Source: a virus. From it: 34,968 nt of DNA. Shown here one piece after another: positions 4,773 through 17,691 of this stretch. The stretch lies in the IMG/VR virus record IMGVR_UViG_3300031857_018455, positions 1 to 34,968 of that record. One strand, written 5' to 3'. The position numbers and the translations under genes are program-made. The stretch's first letter is position 1. The number at the start of each line of letters is the position of its first letter. The notes beneath the pieces are model-generated. The model was not told the origin of the DNA and made no database searches. It saw only the letters and a list, made by a program, of their open reading frames with translations.

Positions 4773-4784
4773 TTAATTATAACA

Positions 4785-5042
4785 ATGGAAAATTTAAAAA
4801 TTAGATGTCGTTCTTGTGGAAAAGAATTGGAAGGACATCATGCAAAAACAGTAAGTTGTGGTTGTCCAAATATGGCAACAATACGTGGAGATAAAATCTC
4901 TGCAGTTGACTTATCTAATGTTGTTATGCTAAACTCATTAAAGCAAAATCAAAAAACAAACGTACTTTCTTCACAAGATATTGCTTGGCAAGAAGCACGT
5001 CGTCAGCGTAAAGTTAGACGTTTAGATTTTGAAGTCCGTTGA
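4785..5042 (+). CDS. Small zinc-ribbon-like protein, unknown function
   Basis: 85 residues. Cys9-x2-Cys12 (IRCRSCGK) and Cys26-Gly-Cys28 (SCGCP) could bind one zinc, with H18/H19 nearby. The C-terminus is basic (ARRQRKVRRL). Begins 12 bases after the dps-like stop, without a Shine-Dalgarno, and is probably co-transcribed with it and with tRNA-Ser, which starts 11 bases later. Function unknown; nucleic-acid binding is plausible from the basic tail only. Confidence 0.75.
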   Translation: MENLKIRCRSCGKELEGHHAKTVSCGCPNMATIRGDKISAVDLSNVVMLNSLKQNQKTNVLSSQDIAWQEARRQRKVRRLDFEVR

Positions 5043-5053
5043 GGACTTTTATT

Positions 5054-5136
5054 GGAAGGAGTCCGGTTGGTCGAGGACACCGCCTTGAAAGCGGCTGGGT
5101 TTAAAAGCTTCGCAGGTTCGATTCCTGTTCCTTCCG
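5054..5136 (+). tRNA. tRNA-Ser (anticodon TGA)
   Basis: Acceptor GGAAGGA (5054-5060)/TCCTTCC (5129-5135), discriminator G5136. Anticodon loop CTTGAAA gives TGA, reading UCA. It has the expected class II variable arm. T-arm GCAGG/CCTGT, loop TTCGATT. Confidence 0.92.
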
Positions 5137-5159
5137 TTACAAAGAATACAAAATAATAC

Positions 5160-5181
5160 ATGTGTTTTGATATTAACACAT
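5160..5181 (+). terminator. Hairpin between tRNA-Ser and the next promoter
   Basis: ATGTGTT (5160-5166)/AACACAT (5175-5181), 7 perfect pairs, loop TTGATATT. No T-run follows, so it is a weak terminator or a processing hairpin. Confidence 0.35.
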
Positions 5182-5183
5182 AG

Positions 5184-5222
5184 TTGACAAAATTGAACTA
5201 CTAATTAGAATAAATTAGTAGT
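5184..5222 (+). promoter_or_regulatory. Promoter with a dyad centred on its -10
   Basis: TTGACA (5184-5189), 16-base spacer, TAGAAT (5206-5211). A 10-bp perfect inverted repeat, ACTACTAATT (5197-5206)/AATTAGTAGT (5213-5222), straddles the -10 and looks like an operator. Drives the three tiny genes that follow. Confidence 0.65.
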
Positions 5223-5243
5223 ATAAACGCACAAACGCCCCCA

Positions 5244-5393
5244 ATGGATGACCATACATACCAAAATTGGGTGAAAATAAAAGAAACATTTGAATCTTCT
5301 GGTAATACTGGTAATATGTTTTATCGACGAGCATGTGAAATAGTAAAGACCAAAAGAGATCCATTGTCAAAGTTTCTTGGAGATGAAAAATGA
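5244..5393 (+). CDS. 49-residue protein, unknown function
   Basis: Starts MDDHTYQNWVKIKET and ends KFLGDEK. Soluble, mixed charge (RRACEIVKTKRD). It begins about 30 bases downstream of a promoter and its stop overlaps the next ATG (ATGA at 5390), which supports it being real and translationally coupled. No family recognised. Confidence 0.6.
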   Translation: MDDHTYQNWVKIKETFESSGNTGNMFYRRACEIVKTKRDPLSKFLGDEK

Positions 5394-5548
5394 CACCAGA
5401 AGAAGTTCAGGAAATGATTGATGTCTCTATTGCAAAGGCGATGGATAAGCACAATAAAACAGCATCAGTCATTAGTGCTTCTATTGGTGCCGTATTGTTA
5501 TTCTTTTATGCTCACGGGATTTTATCTGTAGTTAATAATTTAAAATAG
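5390..5548 (+). CDS. 52-residue single-pass membrane protein
   Basis: Acidic N-terminus (MTPEEVQEMIDV), then a basic-flanked helix KAMDKHNK, and one hydrophobic segment at about residues 27-44 (SVISASIGAVLLFFYAHGIL). Overlaps the preceding gene by 4 bases (ATGA). The topology and tiny size could suit a membrane-complex modulator, but there is no family signature. Function unknown. Confidence 0.6.
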   Translation: MTPEEVQEMIDVSIAKAMDKHNKTASVISASIGAVLLFFYAHGILSVVNNLK

Positions 5549-5554
5549 AGGATA

Positions 5555-5638
5555 ATGACATATCAAGTTATTCAGGGAGTTTTTGCAATGATGATTGTGA
5601 TGTTCATCTTATATGTTGGGAGTGGTGAGCACCGTTAA
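5555..5638 (+). CDS. 27-residue membrane peptide
   Basis: One hydrophobic segment (VFAMMIVMFILYVG) with a charged tail (GEHR). It begins 6 bases after the previous stop and is preceded by an AGAGGATA segment that can act as a weak Shine-Dalgarno. Size and topology resemble the small one-helix subunits of photosynthetic complexes, but I see no match to a particular one. Third gene of the 5184 promoter unit. Confidence 0.5.
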   Translation: MTYQVIQGVFAMMIVMFILYVGSGEHR

Positions 5639-5683
5639 AACTTTGTTAAATAATTGTGTAGTATTTTTATAATTCATTTTTTC

Positions 5684-5712
5684 TTGACAGGAGCACCAGT
5701 TCTTGGTATAAT
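5684..5712 (+). promoter_or_regulatory. Perfect sigma70 promoter of tRNA-Pro
   Basis: TTGACA (5684-5689), 17-base spacer, TATAAT (5707-5712). The expected start lies about 6 bases before the mature tRNA 5' end. Confidence 0.85.
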
Positions 5713-5724
5713 ACTTACATACAA

Positions 5725-5798
5725 CCGGGATTAGCGCAGCTTGGTAGCGCACCTCACTTGGGCTGAGGGGGTCGCAGGTTCGAATCCTGCATCTCGGA
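5725..5798 (+). tRNA. tRNA-Pro (anticodon TGG)
   Basis: Acceptor CCGGGAT (5725-5731)/ATCTCGG (5791-5797) with one G-U, discriminator A5798. D-arm GCGC/GCGC, anticodon stem CCTCA/TGAGG with loop CTTGGGC giving TGG, T-arm GCAGG/CCTGC with loop TTCGAAT. Confidence 0.95.
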
Positions 5799-5822
5799 TT
5801 ACCAGTTTCGAAACTGGTACAC

Positions 5823-5851
5823 TTGACAGAAAACTTTCTAATCCTTATAAT
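5823..5851 (+). promoter_or_regulatory. Perfect sigma70 promoter for 5875-6338
   Basis: TTGACA (5823-5828), 17-base spacer, TATAAT (5846-5851). The following ATG at 5875 would have a leader of only about 17 bases. Confidence 0.85.
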
Positions 5852-5874
5852 ACTAAGGCAAACAAAACAAAACA

Positions 5875-6090
5875 ATGTCTCTGATTCAAAAGTTTAAGAA
5901 AGATGTTAGCACTCTTCGTCTTGCTGCTAACGGGGAATTCTACCTTGATGTAAAGAATCCGAAACTTTATAAAAAGGTTCGCCGCTTCTATGAAAATGAA
6001 GGGGTTGTATTTTCAGGTGACCCCCTTGATGATTACGAAATTCTTATGGAATACGTTGCTCAAGATCTAGAAACTGTTGAGGTGGTATGA
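5875..6090 (+). CDS. 71-residue phage protein, unknown function
   Basis: Basic N-terminal half (MSLIQKFKKDVSTLRL, KLYKKVRRF) and acidic C-terminal half (DPLDDYEILMEYVAQDLETVEVV). No signal peptide or metal site. Start chosen at the first ATG after a perfect early promoter; the stop overlaps the next ATG by 4 bases. It looks like one of the small early conserved proteins of cyanomyoviruses that may target host functions; that role is inference. Confidence 0.75.
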   Translation: MSLIQKFKKDVSTLRLAANGEFYLDVKNPKLYKKVRRFYENEGVVFSGDPLDDYEILMEYVAQDLETVEVV

Positions 6091-9973: not shown

Positions 9974-10789
9974 ATGATTAGTGTATATGGTGGTTCTGGA
10001 TTTATAGGTGGTAGATTTTGTGAACTATATTCAAATATTGTTTTAAAGCAAGATAGGGAAGAAAGAAAACCAAAAACTCAAGAAATTTTATATTTTATTT
10101 CTACCGTTGACAACTATAACGTTCATACGAATATTACTTTAGATGTTGAAACCAATCTCAAGGTTCTATGCGAAGTTTTGGATTTTTGTAGAGATACTAA
10201 TAATGTCTTCAATTTTATTAGCTCTTGGTTTGTGTACGGGGAAACTGAATTACCAGCAAAAGAAGAATACTACTGTCAACCTACAGGATTCTATTCCATT
10301 ACCAAAAAAGCAGCAGAAGATCTTTTGATTTCTTTTTGTAGGACTTATGGTGTTAAGTATCGTATTCTTCGATTGTGTAATGTAATGGGAAATGGTGATG
10401 GTAAAATCAGTGCTAAAAAGAATGCGCTAAGTTATATGATAGACCTTCTTAAAAAGAACGAGGATGTATATCTTTATGATGATGGGACTCCAATAAGAGA
10501 TATTATGCACGTTGATGATGTTTGCAGAGCAATTGATTTGGTCTGTAGAGGGGGTAAGTTAAACGAAATATATAACATTGGAAGTGGACAACCAACACCA
10601 ATCTCTGGTATAATAGAGATGGCAAAGGAGTATTTGGGATCAACCTCAAATATCAAAAGTAAAGAAGCACCTGAGTTTCATAAAATTGTTCAGTCAAAAA
10701 ATTTTTGGATGGATACCAACAAGTTGAATAGACTTGGATTTACTCAGGAAATTAGTAATGACCAAATTATTCGAGAACTATGTCAGTAG
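9974..10789 (+). CDS. Extended SDR, possible CDP-dideoxysugar 4-reductase or epimerase
   Basis: 271 residues. NAD(P) motif GGSGFIGG (6-13); Y107-S-I-T-K111 is the catalytic pair; GTPIRDIMHVDDV and YNIGSG are SDR substrate-domain signatures. It overlaps by 10 bases the RfbH-type dehydrase. In 3,6-dideoxyhexose pathways the dehydrase product is reduced at C4 by an SDR (paratose or abequose synthase), so this is the natural candidate. That role rests on context; sequence alone supports only NAD(P)-dependent sugar SDR. Confidence 0.75.
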   Translation: MISVYGGSGFIGGRFCELYSNIVLKQDREERKPKTQEILYFISTVDNYNVHTNITLDVETNLKVLCEVLDFCRDTNNVFNFISSWFVYGETELPAKEEYYCQPTGFYSITKKAAEDLLISFCRTYGVKYRILRLCNVMGNGDGKISAKKNALSYMIDLLKKNEDVYLYDDGTPIRDIMHVDDVCRAIDLVCRGGKLNEIYNIGSGQPTPISGIIEMAKEYLGSTSNIKSKEAPEFHKIVQSKNFWMDTNKLNRLGFTQEISNDQIIRELCQ

Positions 10790-12099
10790 AACAAGAAGTT
10801 TCATCTTTTATTTCTAAACTTCAGGAAAATGGTGAAAAACTTTTTCCTTATTTACATAATAAAAATTATGAAAAAGGTAAAAGTAATATTTACTATTCGG
10901 GACCTTATTGGGATGAGGGGGAAGTTACTGCAGCAATTACTACTTTACTGACTGGTAAGTGGCTTCCTTGCGGTGAAGAAGTTGATAAGTTTGAACGTAA
11001 ATTTTCAAAAAAGTTTGGATTTGAGAACTCTGTAATGGTGAATTCGGGTAGTTCTGCAAATCTTGTAATGATTGCTGCTCTTAAAAAATATTTTGATTGG
11101 CAAGATGGTGATGAAATTATTGTCTGCGTCTGTGGATTTCCTACAACAATCAATCCAATTATTCAAAATAATTTGAAACCAGTATTTGTTGATATTAGTT
11201 ATGATGATTTGAATTGGGATTTAGATCAAGTTAAGTCTAAGATTACAACAAAAACGAAGGCTGTATTTTCTTCTCCAGTTCTTGGCAATCCTTATGATTA
11301 TGATAAACTATTAAATATTTGCGAAACTTATAATATTAAACTTATTGCTGACAATTGCGATAGTCTTGGTAGTAAGTGGAAAGGTGAATATTTGACAAAA
11401 CACGCTGTTGCTGCTTCTTGTTCTTTTTATCCTGCACACCATATCTCTACAATTGAAGGTGGTATGGTTTCTTCTAATATTAAAGAAGTAATAGATATTG
11501 CTCGTAGTTTTGCTTGGTGGGGTCGTGATTGTTATTGTGTTGGATCTCAAAATCTTCTTGAGTGTGGTGTTTGTGGTAAGAGGTTTGATAAGTGGTTGGA
11601 AGGATATGATAAAATTGTTGATCACAAATATGTTTTTGGGCAGATTGGTTATAATTTGAAACCGGCAGAATTGCAAGGATCTATTGGTCTTGTGCAACTT
11701 GAGAAGTATGATGAAATTCATCAAAAACGTTGTCACAACAAAGAAAGACTCCAATCTATTTTTGAACGTCTTCCTTTCTGTCGTGTGATTAATGAAAGAC
11801 CTGATGCAGAAACTAGTTGGTTTGGTGTTCCTATTGTATTTGAATATGATAAGGCAGGTCTTGTTAAGTGGTTAGAAAACCATAAGATTCAAACTCGAAA
11901 CTATTTCGCTGGTAATATTTTAATGCATCCTGCTTATAAGCACTTGGAATCTGCTAATAATTATCCTAACGCTTCTAAAGTTCTTGATAATGTTTTCTTT
12001 GTCGGATGTTCGCCAGTTATTACTGATGAGATGATTGATTATATTGAAGAAGTTGTAGAAGAATATCGCGCAACTAAAATTCACTATCATCCTGTATAA
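10780..12099 (+). CDS. rfbH: CDP-4-keto-6-deoxyglucose 3-dehydrase (RfbH/E1 type)
   Basis: 439 residues, DegT/aspartate-aminotransferase fold. Instead of the PLP-binding lysine it has His220 in SFYPAHH, the hallmark of E1 dehydrases. The iron-sulfur ligands are visible: Cys193-x57-Cys251-x-Cys253, with Cys262 (one residue further than in the Yersinia enzyme) or Cys265 as the fourth. The enzyme, with PMP and a [2Fe-2S] cluster, removes the C3 hydroxyl of CDP-4-keto-6-deoxyglucose to start 3,6-dideoxyhexoses such as paratose, abequose, tyvelose or ascarylose. The earlier CDP-glucose enzymes and the E3 reductase are not in the window. Host or phage ferredoxin might serve as electron donor. Confidence 0.92.
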   Translation: MSVEQEVSSFISKLQENGEKLFPYLHNKNYEKGKSNIYYSGPYWDEGEVTAAITTLLTGKWLPCGEEVDKFERKFSKKFGFENSVMVNSGSSANLVMIAALKKYFDWQDGDEIIVCVCGFPTTINPIIQNNLKPVFVDISYDDLNWDLDQVKSKITTKTKAVFSSPVLGNPYDYDKLLNICETYNIKLIADNCDSLGSKWKGEYLTKHAVAASCSFYPAHHISTIEGGMVSSNIKEVIDIARSFAWWGRDCYCVGSQNLLECGVCGKRFDKWLEGYDKIVDHKYVFGQIGYNLKPAELQGSIGLVQLEKYDEIHQKRCHNKERLQSIFERLPFCRVINERPDAETSWFGVPIVFEYDKAGLVKWLENHKIQTRNYFAGNILMHPAYKHLESANNYPNASKVLDNVFFVGCSPVITDEMIDYIEEVVEEYRATKIHYHPV

Positions 12100-12104
12100 A
12101 TTTT

Positions 12105-12821
12105 ATGAAAATTGCAATTTCTTTTGTTGGAACTGGTAGTTATTTAAATTATCTACCAGAGTGGTATACTTCTTTAAAAGATAATTTTATCCCTAATGTA
12201 GAAAAAGTATTTTTAGTTTTTACTGATGGTGATGGAGATTGGCCAAACGATGTGATAAAAATTCATTCTGAGCATTATGGTTGGCCAGAAACATTTAATC
12301 ATACATTTAAAAATTTATTGAAGTCAAAAGAACATATACAAGATTGTGATTGGTTTTTATCCGTTGATGCTGATATGAAACCAGCGACAACAATTACTTA
12401 TCAGGAATTTTTTGATGATACTAAAGATTACTTTGGTGTTCATCACCCGTGTCATTTTTTGGGAATGAATCCTCACAATAAGTTTCCTGGATCTTTTGAT
12501 ACTAATTCAAAATCAAAAGCATGTGTTACTGAAGAAATGGATCTATCGGTTTATTATCAGGGATGTTTGTGGGGTGGTAAAATTCCAAAAATTTTTGATA
12601 TGATGGAAGAACTTAATAAGTGGACAGAGGAAGATCTGTCACAAGAAGTTACACCTGTTTGGTATGAAGAATCTTATTTTAATAAATTTTTTATCTTAAA
12701 TAAAGAAAACGTTCATACTCTTGGTCCAGAATTTGCTTATCCAGAAGTTTTTAGCGATTACTGTAGTTTTGAACCAAAAATGATTCATTTAGCAAAGGAT
12801 AATTCTCGCTTACACTCATGA
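12105..12821 (+). CDS. GT6-family glycosyltransferase (ABO/alpha-1,3-Gal/GalNAc transferase type)
   Basis: 238 residues. GT-A fold with D88-A-D90 metal motif in FLSVDADMK; HHPCHF (113-118), YYQGCLWGGKI (150-160) and WYEESYFNKF (186-195) match the order of GT6 landmarks (LHPGF, YYLGGFFGG, WHDESHLNKY in the blood-group enzymes). The family transfers Gal or GalNAc in alpha-1,3 linkage, retaining. It lacks the membrane anchor of the vertebrate proteins, as bacterial and phage members do. GT6 genes are rare in microbes; one was reported from the cyanophage P-SSM2. The donor sugar cannot be decided from these residues. Ends 4 bases into the next gene. Confidence 0.82.
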   Translation: MKIAISFVGTGSYLNYLPEWYTSLKDNFIPNVEKVFLVFTDGDGDWPNDVIKIHSEHYGWPETFNHTFKNLLKSKEHIQDCDWFLSVDADMKPATTITYQEFFDDTKDYFGVHHPCHFLGMNPHNKFPGSFDTNSKSKACVTEEMDLSVYYQGCLWGGKIPKIFDMMEELNKWTEEDLSQEVTPVWYEESYFNKFFILNKENVHTLGPEFAYPEVFSDYCSFEPKMIHLAKDNSRLHS

Positions 12822-13531
12822 ACATATTAATACCAATGGCTGGAGAGGGAACTCGTTTTCCTAGGGACACATATAAAATTCCAAAACCATTAATTCAAAT
12901 TGATGGAATTCCAATGATTCAAAGAGCAGTCAATTCTTTGGGATTGACAGGAACTTATCATTTCATTATCCGTAAAGACAGTTATTATGATCAGGTCTGC
13001 ACCCTATTGCATGGTATTCTCCCATCATCTAAAATTATTAGTGTAGAAGAAACAACACGAGGACCAGCTTCTAGTTGTTTGTTATTTAAAGATTTTATTA
13101 ATAATGAAGATGAACTTGTAATTGCTAATTGCGATCAAATTATGTGGTGGGATCCGCAATTGTTTTTAACATCTGCAAGATACTATAAATACGATGGTTT
13201 GGTTGTTACATATACAACTAACACTCCAAAAAATAGTTACGCTAAAATTGATAAACAAGGATTTGTTCAACAAATTAAAGAAAAAGAAGTTATTAGTGAT
13301 GTGTCTTTGAATGGAATTCATTATTGGAGAAAGGGTAGATATTTTGTTCAAAGTGCAGAAACTATGATAGAGTGTAGAGATACTGCACCAAACGGTGAAT
13401 ACTATGTTGGACCTTCTTATAATTACATGATTAATCAAGGATTAAAAGTTGGAATTCATCACATACCAAATTTCCAGCATAACCCCGTTGGTATTCCAGA
13501 AGATTTAAATTCTTTTTTAAGAAAAGCATGA
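12818..13531 (+). CDS. Sugar-phosphate nucleotidyltransferase
   Basis: 237 residues. N-terminal GEGTRFP (9-15) and KIPKPLIQI (20-28) are the nucleotide-binding and catalytic Lys motifs of the NTP_transferase family, and NCDQI is the metal motif region. It activates a sugar phosphate as an NDP-sugar. It lacks obvious RfbF or GalU-specific signatures, so base and sugar are unknown. It overlaps its neighbours by 4 bases on both sides (ATGA), coupling it to the GT6 gene and to the cupin. It may activate the product of the cupin/RuBisCO-like pair. Confidence 0.82.
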   Translation: MNILIPMAGEGTRFPRDTYKIPKPLIQIDGIPMIQRAVNSLGLTGTYHFIIRKDSYYDQVCTLLHGILPSSKIISVEETTRGPASSCLLFKDFINNEDELVIANCDQIMWWDPQLFLTSARYYKYDGLVVTYTTNTPKNSYAKIDKQGFVQQIKEKEVISDVSLNGIHYWRKGRYFVQSAETMIECRDTAPNGEYYVGPSYNYMINQGLKVGIHHIPNFQHNPVGIPEDLNSFLRKA

Positions 13532-13854
13532 ATATAACTAAGATTACTGATTATGTGCGTGGTTGGTTCATTGGAGATTTTGAACCAACCGTTTTGCGTA
13601 CAAAAGATTTTGAAGTGGGAGTTCTTACGCATCACAAAGGTGAACAGTGGACTTCACATTATCATAAAGATAGTGTAGAATATAACGTATTAGTAAGTGG
13701 AAAAATGATTGTTCAGGGAAAGGAATTGAACAGTGGAGACGTATTTGTTTTTGATAAAGGTGAGATTGCCGATCCAACTTTTTTAGAGGATTGTAAAGTT
13801 GTATGCGTAAAAGTTCCTTCATTGCCACACGATAAATTTGAGGTCAATCAATGA
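13528..13854 (+). CDS. Small cupin-fold protein
   Basis: 108 residues. Cupin motif 1 fits exactly: G38-x5-H44-x-H46-x4-E51-x6-G58, giving three metal ligands. Motif 2 is degenerate, with no clear His (GDVFVFDKGEIADP). Single-domain cupins act as isomerases, epimerases, lyases or sulfur-transfer enzymes. Sits between the nucleotidyltransferase and the RuBisCO-like gene, overlapping each by 4 bases, so it most likely acts in the same short pathway. Cupins partner a RuBisCO-like protein in the Rhodospirillum methylthioadenosine shunt, a loose precedent. Confidence 0.85.
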   Translation: MNITKITDYVRGWFIGDFEPTVLRTKDFEVGVLTHHKGEQWTSHYHKDSVEYNVLVSGKMIVQGKELNSGDVFVFDKGEIADPTFLEDCKVVCVKVPSLPHDKFEVNQ

Positions 13855-15089
13855 AATTTTTTAGAGAATTAACTGAATACGAAAAGGATCGTTGCGTTGT
13901 AGCGACATATTATATTGAATCATATAGTGAAATTGGAACTCTTAGAGATGCTGCATGGAATCTTGCTATTGGGCAGAGTGTTGGTAATCCAAAGGTTCGC
14001 AATCGCTGGGAGAGTGATGAACTTTTTGAACTAGCATCTTGTGTCATCTATGCTGATGAGAACGAACTCTCACAACTGAATGAAGGTGTTGTGAAGATTG
14101 GTTTCCCCAAAGTTAATACTGACTGGGAAGGTGATGGTATTTCACATCTTCTTTGCCAACTGATGGGTGGGCAACTGGATATTGATGTATTCAAAGTCTG
14201 CCGTCTTCAGAAATTGGAATTCCCCGCAGATGTAGAAGCACAATTCCTTGGACCCAAGAATGGTATTGATGGCATTCGTAAGTTCGTCAATCGTTATGAT
14301 AAGCCACTTTCTGGTGCAATTGTAAAACCCAAGACAGGTATTTCTCCTCAAACTCTTGCTGAGATGGTGAAGGAACTTCTTGATGGTGGTGTGGACTTTA
14401 TCAAGGAAGATGAGATTCTTGCAAATCCTTCTTTCTGTCGTCTTGAAGATCGTGTAGAACTGATTTCTAATATCGTAAACAACTGCGGAAGGAACGTAAT
14501 CTACACCTTCTGCATTAATGGAGACCATCATACCATTCTTGATCGTGCTAAGTTTGTTGCAGATAATGGTGGTAATGGTATTCACATCAACTTCTGGTCT
14601 GGTCTTGGGGTTTATAATTCCGTAAGAAAGATGGACCTTCCTTTGTTTATTCACTATCAAAAGAGTGGTGATAAGATTCTTACAGACAAGAGACACGCAT
14701 TCGGTATTGACTGGGATGTTCTTTGTGATCTTGCTGGACTCTGTGGTGTTGATACAATTCACGCAGGAATGTGGGGTGGGTATTTGAGTGATGATGAAAC
14801 CGAACTTCGCAAAACTATGGAAACCCTTCATAGACGGAATGTTCTTCCAGCTCTTAGTTGTGGAATGCATCCAGGCATCGTCAACACGACTGCAGAGAAG
14901 TTTGGTACAGATTTCCTTGCCAACTGTGGAGGTGCCATTCACGGGCATCCTGAGGGCACTCTGGCAGGTGCTCTTGCTATGCGTCAGGCAATTGATAAGA
15001 CACCAGGACTAGAGTTTCGTGCTGCCATAGACAAGTGGGGTTATGAAACTGGTGGGGGTTCTCTTCCTGAATGGGTATTAGATTTCTAA
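13851..15089 (+). CDS. RuBisCO-like protein (form IV-like, not carboxylase)
   Basis: 412 residues, the length of form III/IV proteins. By eye against spinach RbcL: K159-P-K161 equals K175/K177; G180-x-D-F-x-K185-x-D187-E188 equals the carbamylated K201 with D203/E204; H268 near H294; H304 (TIHAG) equals H327; S336-C-G338 equals S379-G-G381; CGG(359-361) for the phosphate loop. R295 becomes Tyr269 and loop-6 K334 is missing (MWGGYL), so CO2 fixation is unlikely. Known RLPs enolise or isomerise phosphorylated ketoses in methionine salvage or decarboxylate branched sugar acids. Context points to a glycan sugar. The gene is richer in G+C than its right neighbour. Start overlaps the cupin stop (ATGA). 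Confidence 0.88.
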   Translation: MKFFRELTEYEKDRCVVATYYIESYSEIGTLRDAAWNLAIGQSVGNPKVRNRWESDELFELASCVIYADENELSQLNEGVVKIGFPKVNTDWEGDGISHLLCQLMGGQLDIDVFKVCRLQKLEFPADVEAQFLGPKNGIDGIRKFVNRYDKPLSGAIVKPKTGISPQTLAEMVKELLDGGVDFIKEDEILANPSFCRLEDRVELISNIVNNCGRNVIYTFCINGDHHTILDRAKFVADNGGNGIHINFWSGLGVYNSVRKMDLPLFIHYQKSGDKILTDKRHAFGIDWDVLCDLAGLCGVDTIHAGMWGGYLSDDETELRKTMETLHRRNVLPALSCGMHPGIVNTTAEKFGTDFLANCGGAIHGHPEGTLAGALAMRQAIDKTPGLEFRAAIDKWGYETGGGSLPEWVLDF

Positions 15090-15116: not shown

Positions 15117-15788
15117 ATGTATAATAGATTGTTAACATCAAATGATGTATCAGAATGCTATAAAATAATTGAAAAAGAAAAATGGCCTCAAAAGGGATTT
15201 AATCACATTGATTTGTGGACGAAAGATGCTGCCATTATAAAATGGGTCACTGTTCTGGAAGAATTTAGATCAATTGGAAAAACCAATTTGAATGTGGTCG
15301 ATTTGGGATCATCCACTGGGGTAGTCCCACATATTATTGCTAGTTGGGGTAACACTGTTACTGGAATAGACTTGAATGGAATTGATCATTGGTGTCCAAA
15401 AGGACTAGTAAAAATGGTCTTAGGTGATGCTTTATATGAACTTAGAGAAATGAAAGATCAAAGTGTTGATGTTATTACTGATCTTTGTGCAGTACATGAA
15501 TTCAACACTAATAGCGATAGTGAGTTTGAAAATATTGGTTGGAAACAAGTTTCTGAGCAATCGTATAGAGTTTTAAAACCTGGGGGAATGCTTCTCATAT
15601 CAACTGATGTTACTCTTCTTCCTTCAGTCCGTAATCCTGGTGGGTTTATTTCTGCTGAAAATTTAATTAAAATTGTAGAAAAATCTGGATTAAAGTTGAC
15701 AACTCCATATGATAAGGAATATGAAAAAAATCCATTTTACCAGAATGGTGTTGATTTATACATAGCAACTCTTTCATTTAAAAAATAA
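15117..15788 (+). CDS. Class I SAM-dependent methyltransferase
   Basis: 223 residues. Motif I VVDLGSSTGVVP (about 59-70) binds SAM; TGIDLNGID is the acidic strand-2 end; SYRVLKPGGMLLIS is the post-motif typical of Methyltransf_11/25. Acceptor unknown, probably a sugar or glycan hydroxyl given the locus. Begins 28 bases after the RuBisCO-like stop without overlap, so the cupin/RLP unit ends before it. Confidence 0.85.
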   Translation: MYNRLLTSNDVSECYKIIEKEKWPQKGFNHIDLWTKDAAIIKWVTVLEEFRSIGKTNLNVVDLGSSTGVVPHIIASWGNTVTGIDLNGIDHWCPKGLVKMVLGDALYELREMKDQSVDVITDLCAVHEFNTNSDSEFENIGWKQVSEQSYRVLKPGGMLLISTDVTLLPSVRNPGGFISAENLIKIVEKSGLKLTTPYDKEYEKNPFYQNGVDLYIATLSFKK

Positions 15789-15797
15789 TAAAATGAT

Positions 15798-16283
15798 ATG
15801 AAAATTATTGCTCATAGAGGTAATTTAACTGGATCAAATTCACTTCGGGAAAACAGTATTGATTATATTGAAGAAGCAATTGCTGAAGGATTTGATGTTG
15901 AAATTGATTTAAGACATAAAGATCATAACTTTTATCTGGGGCATGATGAACCACAGTATCATGTTCCTATGAGTTGGTTAGTTAAATATAAAGATAAACT
16001 TTGGATTCATTGTAAGGATTTAGAAAGTTTAGATAAAATTTCTAGTTCTCCAATTGATTTTCATTACTTTTGGCATGAGATAGATAGATATACACTAACC
16101 AGTAAAGGTATTGGTTGGGTCTTAGTTGGTCAGTTTCCATTCAAAAAATCTATTGTAGTTCTTCCAGAATCTATTGATTATTATTGTAAGTATGAAGGAA
16201 AGTATGATAGAATATTAGATACAATGGGAATTTGTACTGATACACCATTATTTTATAAAAAAGAATTAGGAGTAACTCAATGA
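15798..16283 (+). CDS. Glycerophosphodiesterase-like (PI-PLC/GDPD fold) protein, short
   Basis: 161 residues. H6-R7-G8, E18-N19, E35-x-D37 and H49-D50 reproduce the GDPD catalytic order (HRG, EN, ExD, HD). It is far shorter than a normal GDPD of about 250 residues, lacking the C-terminal part of the barrel, and has no signal peptide. It may hydrolyse or transfer a glycerophosphodiester in the cytosol, for example recycling glycerol phosphate or tailoring a phosphodiester-linked glycan. Overlaps the next gene by 4 bases. Confidence 0.75.
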   Translation: MKIIAHRGNLTGSNSLRENSIDYIEEAIAEGFDVEIDLRHKDHNFYLGHDEPQYHVPMSWLVKYKDKLWIHCKDLESLDKISSSPIDFHYFWHEIDRYTLTSKGIGWVLVGQFPFKKSIVVLPESIDYYCKYEGKYDRILDTMGICTDTPLFYKKELGVTQ

Positions 16284-16933
16284 AATGGCAAGATGATTTA
16301 ATTAAAGACGTTAGAAGTAATACTGCAGCTGATGATTTGTGTTGTGGTATTGATCATTATCTTGATCTTTGGCCAGAAGCAGGCGAGGAAGAAACCGTAT
16401 TAAATACATATTCTGGAGAAGAGATTACTGATTGTAATCGTAGTGCTCTTCTAGAGCAGTTTATGAAAGTTAGAGATAATTGTAAAGCTATTCTTGAAAT
16501 TGGTATTGGTAGAAATAATACAAGGTCTTTTGCAACTGTGTTTGCAGAAAATAAAAAAGAAGAAACTGTTTATATTGGATTAGATATAGAAGATCGTAGT
16601 TGGTTGGTAGAAATTGGAGAAAATATTAATACAATTCAGGGTGATAGTTCAGATTATGAACAAATGATAGATATTATTAAAAATAAATTTGATGTTGAAG
16701 AATTTGATTTTATTTTCATTGATGGACTTCATAGTATTAATCAAGTTTTGAAAGATTGGGAATATACCAACTTATTATCTGATAAAGGTATTGTTGGTCT
16801 TCATGATACTAGTCATCATATTGGACCTTTTCTTTTTGTTCGCAATTTAGACAAAAAAAAGTGGAATGTTATTGAGAATGCTTGTCCGCAAGACTATGGT
16901 ATTGGATTTGCTTCTAAGAGAGTGAAAAAATGA
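16280..16933 (+). CDS. SAM-dependent methyltransferase-fold protein (CmcI/Methyltransf_24 like)
   Basis: 217 residues. ILEIGIGRNNT (about 72-82) is a motif I-like SAM site and VYIGLDIED its acidic strand; FIFIDGLHSINQVLKDW is the DG-H-x5-DW signature shared with MTase_24 and cephalosporin-hydroxylase-like proteins; LHDTSHHIGP has clustered His that may bind metal. Probably methylates a sugar hydroxyl. Overlaps both neighbours by 4 bases. Confidence 0.75.
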   Translation: MKWQDDLIKDVRSNTAADDLCCGIDHYLDLWPEAGEEETVLNTYSGEEITDCNRSALLEQFMKVRDNCKAILEIGIGRNNTRSFATVFAENKKEETVYIGLDIEDRSWLVEIGENINTIQGDSSDYEQMIDIIKNKFDVEEFDFIFIDGLHSINQVLKDWEYTNLLSDKGIVGLHDTSHHIGPFLFVRNLDKKKWNVIENACPQDYGIGFASKRVKK

Positions 16934-17691
16934 AAATAGCTTTATGTTTTTGTGGTCAACCTAGATTTGTTGAAGAAGTTGCCGCCTTAATTAAAGAAAA
17001 TGTCATTCAAAATTATGATGTAGATGTTTTTGCCCATCTTTGGTTTGATAAAGAATTGCAAACAAAACCTTATAAGTACGGTGGTGCTGGTGGTTGGAAA
17101 CATCAAAGGATATCAGAAAATTCTATAGAAAAATTTAAAGAGATTTATTCTCCTGTAAAATTTAAAACAGAATCAAGTAAAAATTTTTTCGATTCAAATT
17201 ATTCTAGCAATTATCTTGCTACTTTAAAGAGATATAAGCAGGGGGCTATCGATAATCCAGAAGAACCTGATTATCCAAAAAGAGATGTAAATAATATTAT
17301 TTCATACTATTATAGTTTAAATGAAGTTTGTTTATTGAAAAAATTGTATGAATTTGAAAAAGATTTTAGATATGATTATGTAATATGGTTAAGAACAGAT
17401 TCTGAAGTTAGAAGTAAAGTTCAGTATGAAACTTTTAACAAAGATGTTTTATACTACACGGGCATTAACAATCAACCAGATGGTATGATTTGTGACTGGT
17501 TTAATTTTGGTGGATCTAAAGTAATGGATGCTTTTATGGGAACCTTTCCTGTTATAGATCTTTGTATTGATAATTGCATGAAGCAAACTAATGGTGCATG
17601 GTGTTCTGAATTAATTCATACTCAAATGCTAAAAGCATTTAATATTCAAAGTCAACCTCTTCCAATATACATTACTTTACCTAGATTTTAA
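16930..17691 (+). CDS. Putative glycosyltransferase of the GQPR type
   Basis: 253 residues. Starts KIALCFCGQPRFVE, the opening of a family seen in phage and giant-virus glycan loci. VIWLRTDSEV is a likely DxD-type site, and WFNFGGSKVMDAF resembles the acceptor-side loop of GT-A enzymes. No signal or membrane segment. Donor and acceptor unknown. Ends 1 base before the next ATG. Confidence 0.65.
   Translation: MKIALCFCGQPRFVEEVAALIKENVIQNYDVDVFAHLWFDKELQTKPYKYGGAGGWKHQRISENSIEKFKEIYSPVKFKTESSKNFFDSNYSSNYLATLKRYKQGAIDNPEEPDYPKRDVNNIISYYYSLNEVCLLKKLYEFEKDFRYDYVIWLRTDSEVRSKVQYETFNKDVLYYTGINNQPDGMICDWFNFGGSKVMDAFMGTFPVIDLCIDNCMKQTNGAWCSELIHTQMLKAFNIQSQPLPIYITLPRF

Follow-up and report, generated by a model that had tools for sequence, protein, structure and literature searches.

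RuBisCO-like proteins (RLPs) are rare examples of the reuse of the RuBisCO fold, and those characterised so far act in sulfur salvage or in sugar-acid catabolism (PMC6302742). MtnW, a 2,3-diketo-5-methylthiopentyl-1-P enolase (PDB 2oek, 3fk4, 4nas), enolises its substrate without carboxylation, and the R. rubrum RLP catalyses the 1,3-isomerisation of a ketose phosphate (MTRu-1-P), moving its carbonyl, after which a cupin enzyme acts (PMC6302742). OiaX, a 3-oxo-isoapionate-4-P decarboxylase, and the sugar-acid RLPs (3nwr, Agrobacterium, Rhizobium, Azospirillum) use sugar-derived phosphates. The GOS paper additionally reports unplaced RuBisCO groups of 65 sequences.

The viral RLP described here can be compared with each of these systems. 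It shares with form III RuBisCO (2cwx, 3a12, 8dht) the fold, the carbamate lysine, the metal ligands, K175/K177 and the Ser/Gly residues of the barrel phosphate site, but is set apart by K334Y, H294Q, E60Q, T65N, W66P and N123Q/H, by its separate clade and by its sugar-activation context. Its resemblance to OiaX and the sugar-acid RLPs comprises the RLP fold, a DFIK-DE motif that is then followed by NP in 3nwr and, if its substrate is inferred correctly, the use of a sugar-derived phosphate; those enzymes are, however, catabolic, and in the plasmid loci sampled they are accompanied by a four-carbon acid sugar kinase. Like MtnW it lacks carboxylation and, by inference, enolises its substrate, whereas the K175/K177 region reads FKGMIG in MtnW and VKPKTG in the phage protein, the clades are separate and no methionine-salvage genes were recognised nearby. 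The pairing of an RLP with a cupin enzyme recalls the R. rubrum pathway (PMC6302742), in which, unlike here, no nucleotidyltransferase or glycerophosphodiester phosphodiesterase (GDPD) is known. Finally, the Synechococcus phages Bellamy and SynMITS9220M01 carry the same nucleotidyltransferase (NTase) and cupin families and a GDPD-like gene in glycan loci, but lack an RLP; their NTase is fused to RpiB and accompanied by a PfkB-like kinase and a HAD phosphatase.

An RLP gene in a viral glycan locus

The window, by which we mean the whole stretch of DNA analysed, is a viral record of 34,968 bases. The porin encoded there shares 73% identity with its counterpart in Synechococcus phage S-SRM01, the S74 tail protein has its nearest relatives in Synechococcus phages S-SKS1 and B23, and the cytidylyltransferase shares 74% identity with those of S-H68, RN05-S and S-B43. 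A T4-like cyanophage is the natural and likely source. The porin gene (1418-2902) is a phage-encoded OprB-type with an SLH domain. A glycan biosynthesis locus extends over 6576-27444 on the plus strand and includes the cytidylyltransferase, SDR epimerases, GT11, an RfbH-like aminotransferase, GT6, UDP-galactopyranose mutase, WcbI and GT25, among others. The RfbH-like PLP enzyme lies among the epimerases at 10780-12099 (366 bits against a cut-off of 423) and hints at a possible 3,6-dideoxy or amino sugar in the same locus.

Within this locus, positions 13851-15089 of the plus strand encode an intact RLP of 412 amino acids with an ATG start, which overlaps the stop of the preceding cupin gene by 4 nt. 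The protein belongs to the RuBisCO superfamily by its match to PF00016 (RuBisCO_large, E 3e-44), and a PDB search returned 99 distinct RuBisCO or RLP sequences at E<=1e-3, with form III RuBisCOs as the best matches (top 2cwx, E 8e-41). The fold was confirmed with an AlphaFold2 model built from a 28-sequence alignment (pLDDT 92.8, pTM 0.90), for which Foldseek gave the form III RuBisCO 3a12 as the top match over a full-length alignment (E 1e-33, TMq 0.85).

We then compared the active site with that of the spinach enzyme, whose numbering is used for the reference residues. The motif reads GVDFIKEDE, so that the carbamate lysine and the Mg ligands are kept (K185=K201, D187=D203, E188=E204), as are K175 and K177 (K159 and K161 in the RLP). 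These five positions are invariant in 111 homologues and, together with the equivalents of S379, G381 and G403, are retained in 28/28 aligned members (G404 in 27/28). Conversely, the loop-6 K334 position is occupied by Tyr311 (Tyr in 110 of the 111 aligned homologues, with one gap), H294 by Gln270 and R295 by Lys271, the last a conservative change that leaves a basic residue, and the differences E60Q, T65N, W66P, N123Q/H and T173I complete the list. The protein thus lacks the carboxylase residues by which forms I-III would be recognised, E60, N123, T173, H294 and R295 having become Q42, Q/H108, I157, Q270 and K271. The retention of K175, K177, K201, D203 and E204 alongside a tyrosine at 311 indicates that the site for enolisation has been kept while the lysine for CO2 addition is gone, and the changes at K334, H294 and R295 argue that the RLP is not a carboxylase; the altered K334, E60 and N123 and the tree described below rule that reading out.

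These residue assignments bear out the earlier note, which had claimed a RuBisCO signature with the carbamylation lysine and other active-site residues and a replaced loop-6 Lys334. Its claim that Arg295 is replaced held as well, with the qualification that the substitute is basic, and all three parts of its description, a form IV-like RLP, encoded by a phage, in a glycan and sugar-nucleotide locus, were upheld.

Against relatives at 88-97% amino acid identity, dN/dS was 0.03-0.06, showing purifying selection and indicating that the gene is maintained. The same values exclude a chance ORF or a pseudogene, and a minus-strand ORF within the gene (14142-14948) was taken as mechanical. As a separate observation, residues 108 and 304 undergo a paired swap, Q108/H304 to H108/Q304, in 10/111 homologues, with few mixed cases; this coordination may mean that both residues contribute to one catalytic or binding function.

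Phylogeny and spread of the RLP family

A maximum-likelihood tree was computed from 67 proteins, including 42 viral and cellular members of the RLP family (21 of them cellular relatives). All 42 form one clade (support 100/99), within which viral and cellular members are interleaved, and which is separate from forms I, II and III, MtnW, IV-Photo (2qyg, 1tel) and the OiaX/sugar-acid RLPs, each reference group itself being recovered. Equivalog models were consistently below cut-off: 203 bits against 497 for type III RuBisCO (TIGR03326), 168 against 409 and 129 against 514 for the MtnW models, and 155 against 700 for OiaX. Scores and tree together exclude membership of MtnW and of OiaX. (The GkMtnW comparison sequence was identical to PDB 2oek.) We consider it likely that the clade represents a novel type of RLP, whose role is probably new as well; the tree does not, however, contain the published IV-GOS, IV-EnvOnly, IV-AMC or R. 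rubrum RLPs, and the clade may already be named.

These results bear on the possibility that the RLP is an MtnW or MTRu-1-P isomerase, serving as an auxiliary metabolic gene of methionine salvage or isoprenoid metabolism. In favor of this view, the R. rubrum RLP likewise works with a cupin (PMC6302742). Against it, the protein scores below the MtnW cut-offs and lies outside the MtnW clade, no mtn genes were recognised in the module, and the link to an NTase would be left unexplained, making this alternative very improbable.

Contigs of T4-like and jumbo phages carry the family widely, and a few cellular lineages have it too. In IMG/VR, at least 230 stretches match the RLP patterns, all encoding relatives, of which the top 80 were retained; additional loci came from scans that used Legionella and SAR11 queries, and the viral proteins analysed comprise 106 distinct sequences. 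Tests on 17 large records with an RLP detected a major capsid gene of T4 type in 6 and a terminase scoring above cut-off in 7; the positive records include ones of 177, 197 and 518 kb, which identifies RLP-bearing records as real phages. By comparison with cellular genomes, the clade has more matches in viral contigs. A scan of the genomes of 84,980 species with two peptide patterns found 23 RLP loci, none cyanobacterial, in SAR11, Legionella, Azospirillum oleiclasticum, Verrucomicrobia, Elusimicrobia, Patescibacteria, DPANN archaea and a few more; the gene is present in 4/22 genomes of the genus Legionella and in 2/247 of one SAR11 family. Recent uptake from a cyanobacterial host is therefore unsupported (0/23 loci), within the limits of the two patterns. 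One apparently cellular copy, on the Crocinitomicaceae MAG contig DORI01000002.1 (L087), is identical to a viral RLP (L044) over the tree alignment, and this contig is likely a contaminating phage fragment.

A tblastn search of 50,697 annotated phage records found no RLP; the family is absent from INPHARED and PHROGs, the RLP of the window has no PHROG assignment, a Foldseek search of BFVD gave no viral protein of RuBisCO fold (generic barrel matches only, TMq up to 0.39), and no viral RLP was found in the literature searched. The statement in the earlier note that no phage RLP has been characterised thus held, no annotated phage family containing one, although the breadth of the family across phage contigs and some cellular lineages had been underestimated. 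It had named three outcomes that would refute it, namely placement among forms I-III, a lysine in loop 6, and membership of a known phage family; all were checked and none was met, the tree placing the protein elsewhere, loop 6 having Tyr and no annotated phage family being involved.

A further possibility is that the RLP interferes with the carbon metabolism of the host during infection, for instance by turning RuBP into a different bisphosphate and so inhibiting the Calvin cycle. Cyanophages redirect the Calvin cycle, and the window comes from a probable cyanophage. However, relatives occur in SAR11, Legionella, DPANN archaea, Elusimicrobia and the 518-kb phage record, the neighbours are sugar-activation and glycan genes, and the equivalents of E60, T65, W66, N123 and K334 are all changed, so that we regard this explanation, too, as very improbable.

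Conserved partners and alternative modules

Next to the RLP gene, on the same strand, lie a sugar-phosphate NTase (12818-13531; PF00483, E 2e-9; closest PDB entry 4evw, E 2e-34; PHROG_3980) and a small cupin (13528-13854; PF07883, E 3e-4, under the gathering cut-off; PHROG_24762) that overlaps both of its neighbours by 4 nt, stop to start. H44 and E51 are invariant in the cupin alignment and H46 is nearly so. Downstream, also on the plus strand, a 161-residue GDPD-like protein (15798-16283) carries an HRG..EN..ExD..GHD motif and a profile match to GDPD 7e0v (E 1e-4); its model is confident (pLDDT 93), with weak fold matches to GDPD 3no3/7e2a (TMq 0.56). Members of this mini-GDPD family (140-180 aa) have H6, R7, E18, N19, E35, D37, H49, H71, K73, H93 and D96 invariant, and accompany phage NTases with several different feeder enzymes. 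In view of the weak matches to full-size GDPD barrels, they may constitute their own family of shortened phosphodiesterases.

Three further plus-strand genes lie close by. A SAM methyltransferase (15117-15788; PF08241, E 6e-7) between the RLP and GDPD-like genes is accessory, with homologues in only 8 loci, and a Methyltransf_24-type methyltransferase (16280-16933; PF13578, E 2e-7) is a frequent accessory (34 loci at >=50% coverage). A DUF7796/WavE-like putative glycan transferase family (c4; 16930-17691), called from a weak DUF7796 match and without a match in a PDB search, is frequent near the module, and a related family also adjoins cellular RLP-NTase pairs.

Clustering of the genes around 81 RLPs showed that this set is conserved, with the NTase in 77 loci, the cupin in 67/81 and the small GDPD-like gene in 62/81, usually in the order NTase-cupin-RLP-GDPD. 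The 106 distinct viral loci include 97 with adequate flanks, and in 95 of these the NTase is <=4 genes from the RLP. It also adjoins the cellular RLP in SAR11, Verrucomicrobia, Elusimicrobia, Nanoarchaeia and Legionella, and lies downstream of the RLP in Azospirillum. Fusions of the RLP to the NTase or to the cupin were looked for and none was found.

The gene order raises the question of whether the RLP works after the NTase, epimerising or rearranging an NDP-ketose or other NDP-activated sugar. The order NTase-cupin-RLP would be compatible with this, and many NDP-sugars are modified once activated. We nevertheless consider it unlikely: known RLPs use free phosphosugars (PMC6302742), the equivalents of the barrel phosphate-site residues S379, G381, G403 and G404 are kept, and the counterpart enzymes of the alternative module described below would precede activation.

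Isolated Synechococcus phages have the same NTase and GDPD families, and some also the cupin, without an RLP. In Bellamy, gp206 (positions 4776-5933 of the stretch L084) is the NTase fused to a LacAB_rpiB domain (PF02502, E 4e-32). The fusion is annotated merely as "phosphatase", the adjoining PfkB-like kinase as "hypothetical protein" and the HAD as "phosphatase"; together these genes likely form a complete nucleotide-sugar module that has gone unrecognised in cyanophage isolates. Scanning viral sequences with the Bellamy cupin returned 72 loci, of which 69 could be classified, with RpiB in 58/69 and an RLP in 0/69. The usual order is HAD, PfkB-like kinase, NTase+RpiB, cupin, GDPD, where the HAD reads LDVDGVxTDG and the kinase matches PF00294 at 6e-5. 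Conversely, RpiB, the PfkB-like kinase and the RpiB-type HAD were found in 0/106 distinct viral RLP loci, within the flanks covered, and a search of 32 RLP-bearing viral records with the NTase-RpiB fusion matched the NTase part only, with no match to the RpiB domain.

The RLP and the RpiB/PfkB/HAD feeder sets are thus never found together in one neighbourhood, and this replacement pattern is shown by the data; the two sets of loci were obtained with different queries and have related members, which means that their mutual exclusivity cannot be taken as an independent count. It also does not extend to whole genomes, as one record (L022; G487) carries a HAD-PfkB-NTase module (about 1768-2478) and an RLP module (40299 on) about 38 kb apart, which means that one virus can hold both. 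A GDPD-centred scan revealed a third arrangement, without an isomerase, in which HAD_2 is fused to the NTase (24 loci); RLPs were present in 9 loci, 1 of these with both. In an NTase tree the RLP-linked NTases are paraphyletic, with the RpiB-fused and HAD-fused NTases nested among them, suggesting that the feeders have probably been exchanged. It is likely, in our opinion, that a single sugar-activation chassis is served by interchangeable feeders, of which the RLP is one of several.

The neighbourhoods also bear on a rival in which the RLP is an OiaX-like decarboxylase of a 3-keto sugar-acid phosphate, the resulting ketose phosphate then being activated by the NTase. OiaX is among the RLP types of known reaction matched by profile (155 bits), 3nwr-type RLPs have the DFIK(D/E)DE...NP motif in common with the viral RLP, and sugar acids can occur in glycan loci. 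However, 155 bits is far below the cut-off of 700 and the clade is separate, the four-carbon acid sugar kinase that comes after the RLP in the sugar-acid loci sampled is not among the recurring neighbours of viral RLPs, no sugar-acid-forming enzyme recurs in the module, and the replacement set has an isomerase but no decarboxylase. This rival appears unlikely.

Proposed role in sugar activation

Our preferred interpretation, to which we assign a probability of roughly 0.6, is that the RLP is an enolising sugar-phosphate isomerase or epimerase that feeds nucleotide-sugar synthesis; the activity, the isomerase chemistry and the order of steps are inferred, and there is no biochemistry. As an Mg2+/carbamyl-lysine enzyme of RuBisCO fold without CO2 fixation, the RLP would enolise its substrate, a phosphorylated ketose or some related sugar phosphate, and reprotonate it elsewhere. 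The adjacent NTase would take the phosphosugar product to an NDP-activated sugar or sugar-phosphate donor, and the cupin, whose role is guessed from a weak Pfam match, might modify the sugar further, through sugar isomerase/epimerase or lyase activity. For the mini-GDPD we infer cleavage of a phosphodiester, either trimming a decorated glycan or recycling the donor, and the neighbouring transferases may attach the group to the envelope of the host cell or to a phage-directed glycan. Related viruses would instead feed the NTase-cupin-GDPD set by means of RpiB, fused to the NTase, together with the PfkB-like kinase and the HAD phosphatase.

Isomerisation is favored because the NTase is the conserved partner and because a non-homologous set of isomerase, kinase and phosphatase takes the place of the RLP. 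The parallel with the R. rubrum isomerase and its cupin further supports an isomerase or epimerase over a decarboxylase. By inference, the earlier proposal of an unusual sugar made by enolisation, isomerisation or decarboxylation is thereby narrowed towards isomerisation. Moreover, the RLP module contains no kinase or phosphatase, suggesting that the RLP probably makes a phosphosugar acceptable to the NTase in one step. The heptose pathway of GmhA-HldE-GmhB/HddC proceeds through an isomerase, a 1-kinase, a phosphatase and a nucleotidyltransferase. The RpiB version resembles this logic, although the isomerase differs, and the RLP version has neither kinase nor phosphatase. A one-for-one swap with RpiB is not shown: the RLP stands in for three genes (RpiB, kinase and phosphatase), and its product may differ. 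Isomerase chemistry also remains one of several options, given that other RLPs are decarboxylases or enolases.

The occurrence of ordinary sugar enzymes in the place of the RLP raises the possibility that the RuBisCO fold serves phages in the synthesis of an unusual surface sugar. A bolder reading, which we judge as apt to be wrong as right, is that a deep RuBisCO clade, most abundant in phages, acts anabolically as an interchangeable feeder of a dedicated NTase, yielding an undescribed nucleotide-activated sugar for glycans of phages, SAR11, Legionella and others. If true, the RuBisCO fold would gain a new biochemical role, the first to be described in viruses, and sugar activation would add a third setting to those known for RLPs. 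The new points here are the size of the family and its clade, its partnership with the NTase, and the substitution of RpiB, a kinase and a phosphatase for the RLP; the replacement pattern makes a vague sugar hypothesis testable. Environmental surveys may score such RLP genes as carbon fixation.

The proposal bears on phage effects on host surface glycans and on the variable glycan loci of SAR11 and Legionella. In the cultivable bacteria Legionella maceachernii, L. nautarum and L. drozanskii (L105-L107), the unit consists of a divergent LicD-type gene beside the RLP-NTase pair, in the order LicD-type, RLP, NTase; the L. drozanskii copy was tested (E 3e-43), and the call in the other two species rests on N-terminal sequence or position. 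LicD proteins transfer phosphorylated groups from CDP-activated donors, and with such a neighbour the NTase may be a cytidylyltransferase in Legionella; we count this pairing in favor of the proposed feeder role. The SAR11 loci L095, L096 and L098-L101 have two different NTases, one on each side of the RLP, together with a GDPD-like gene.
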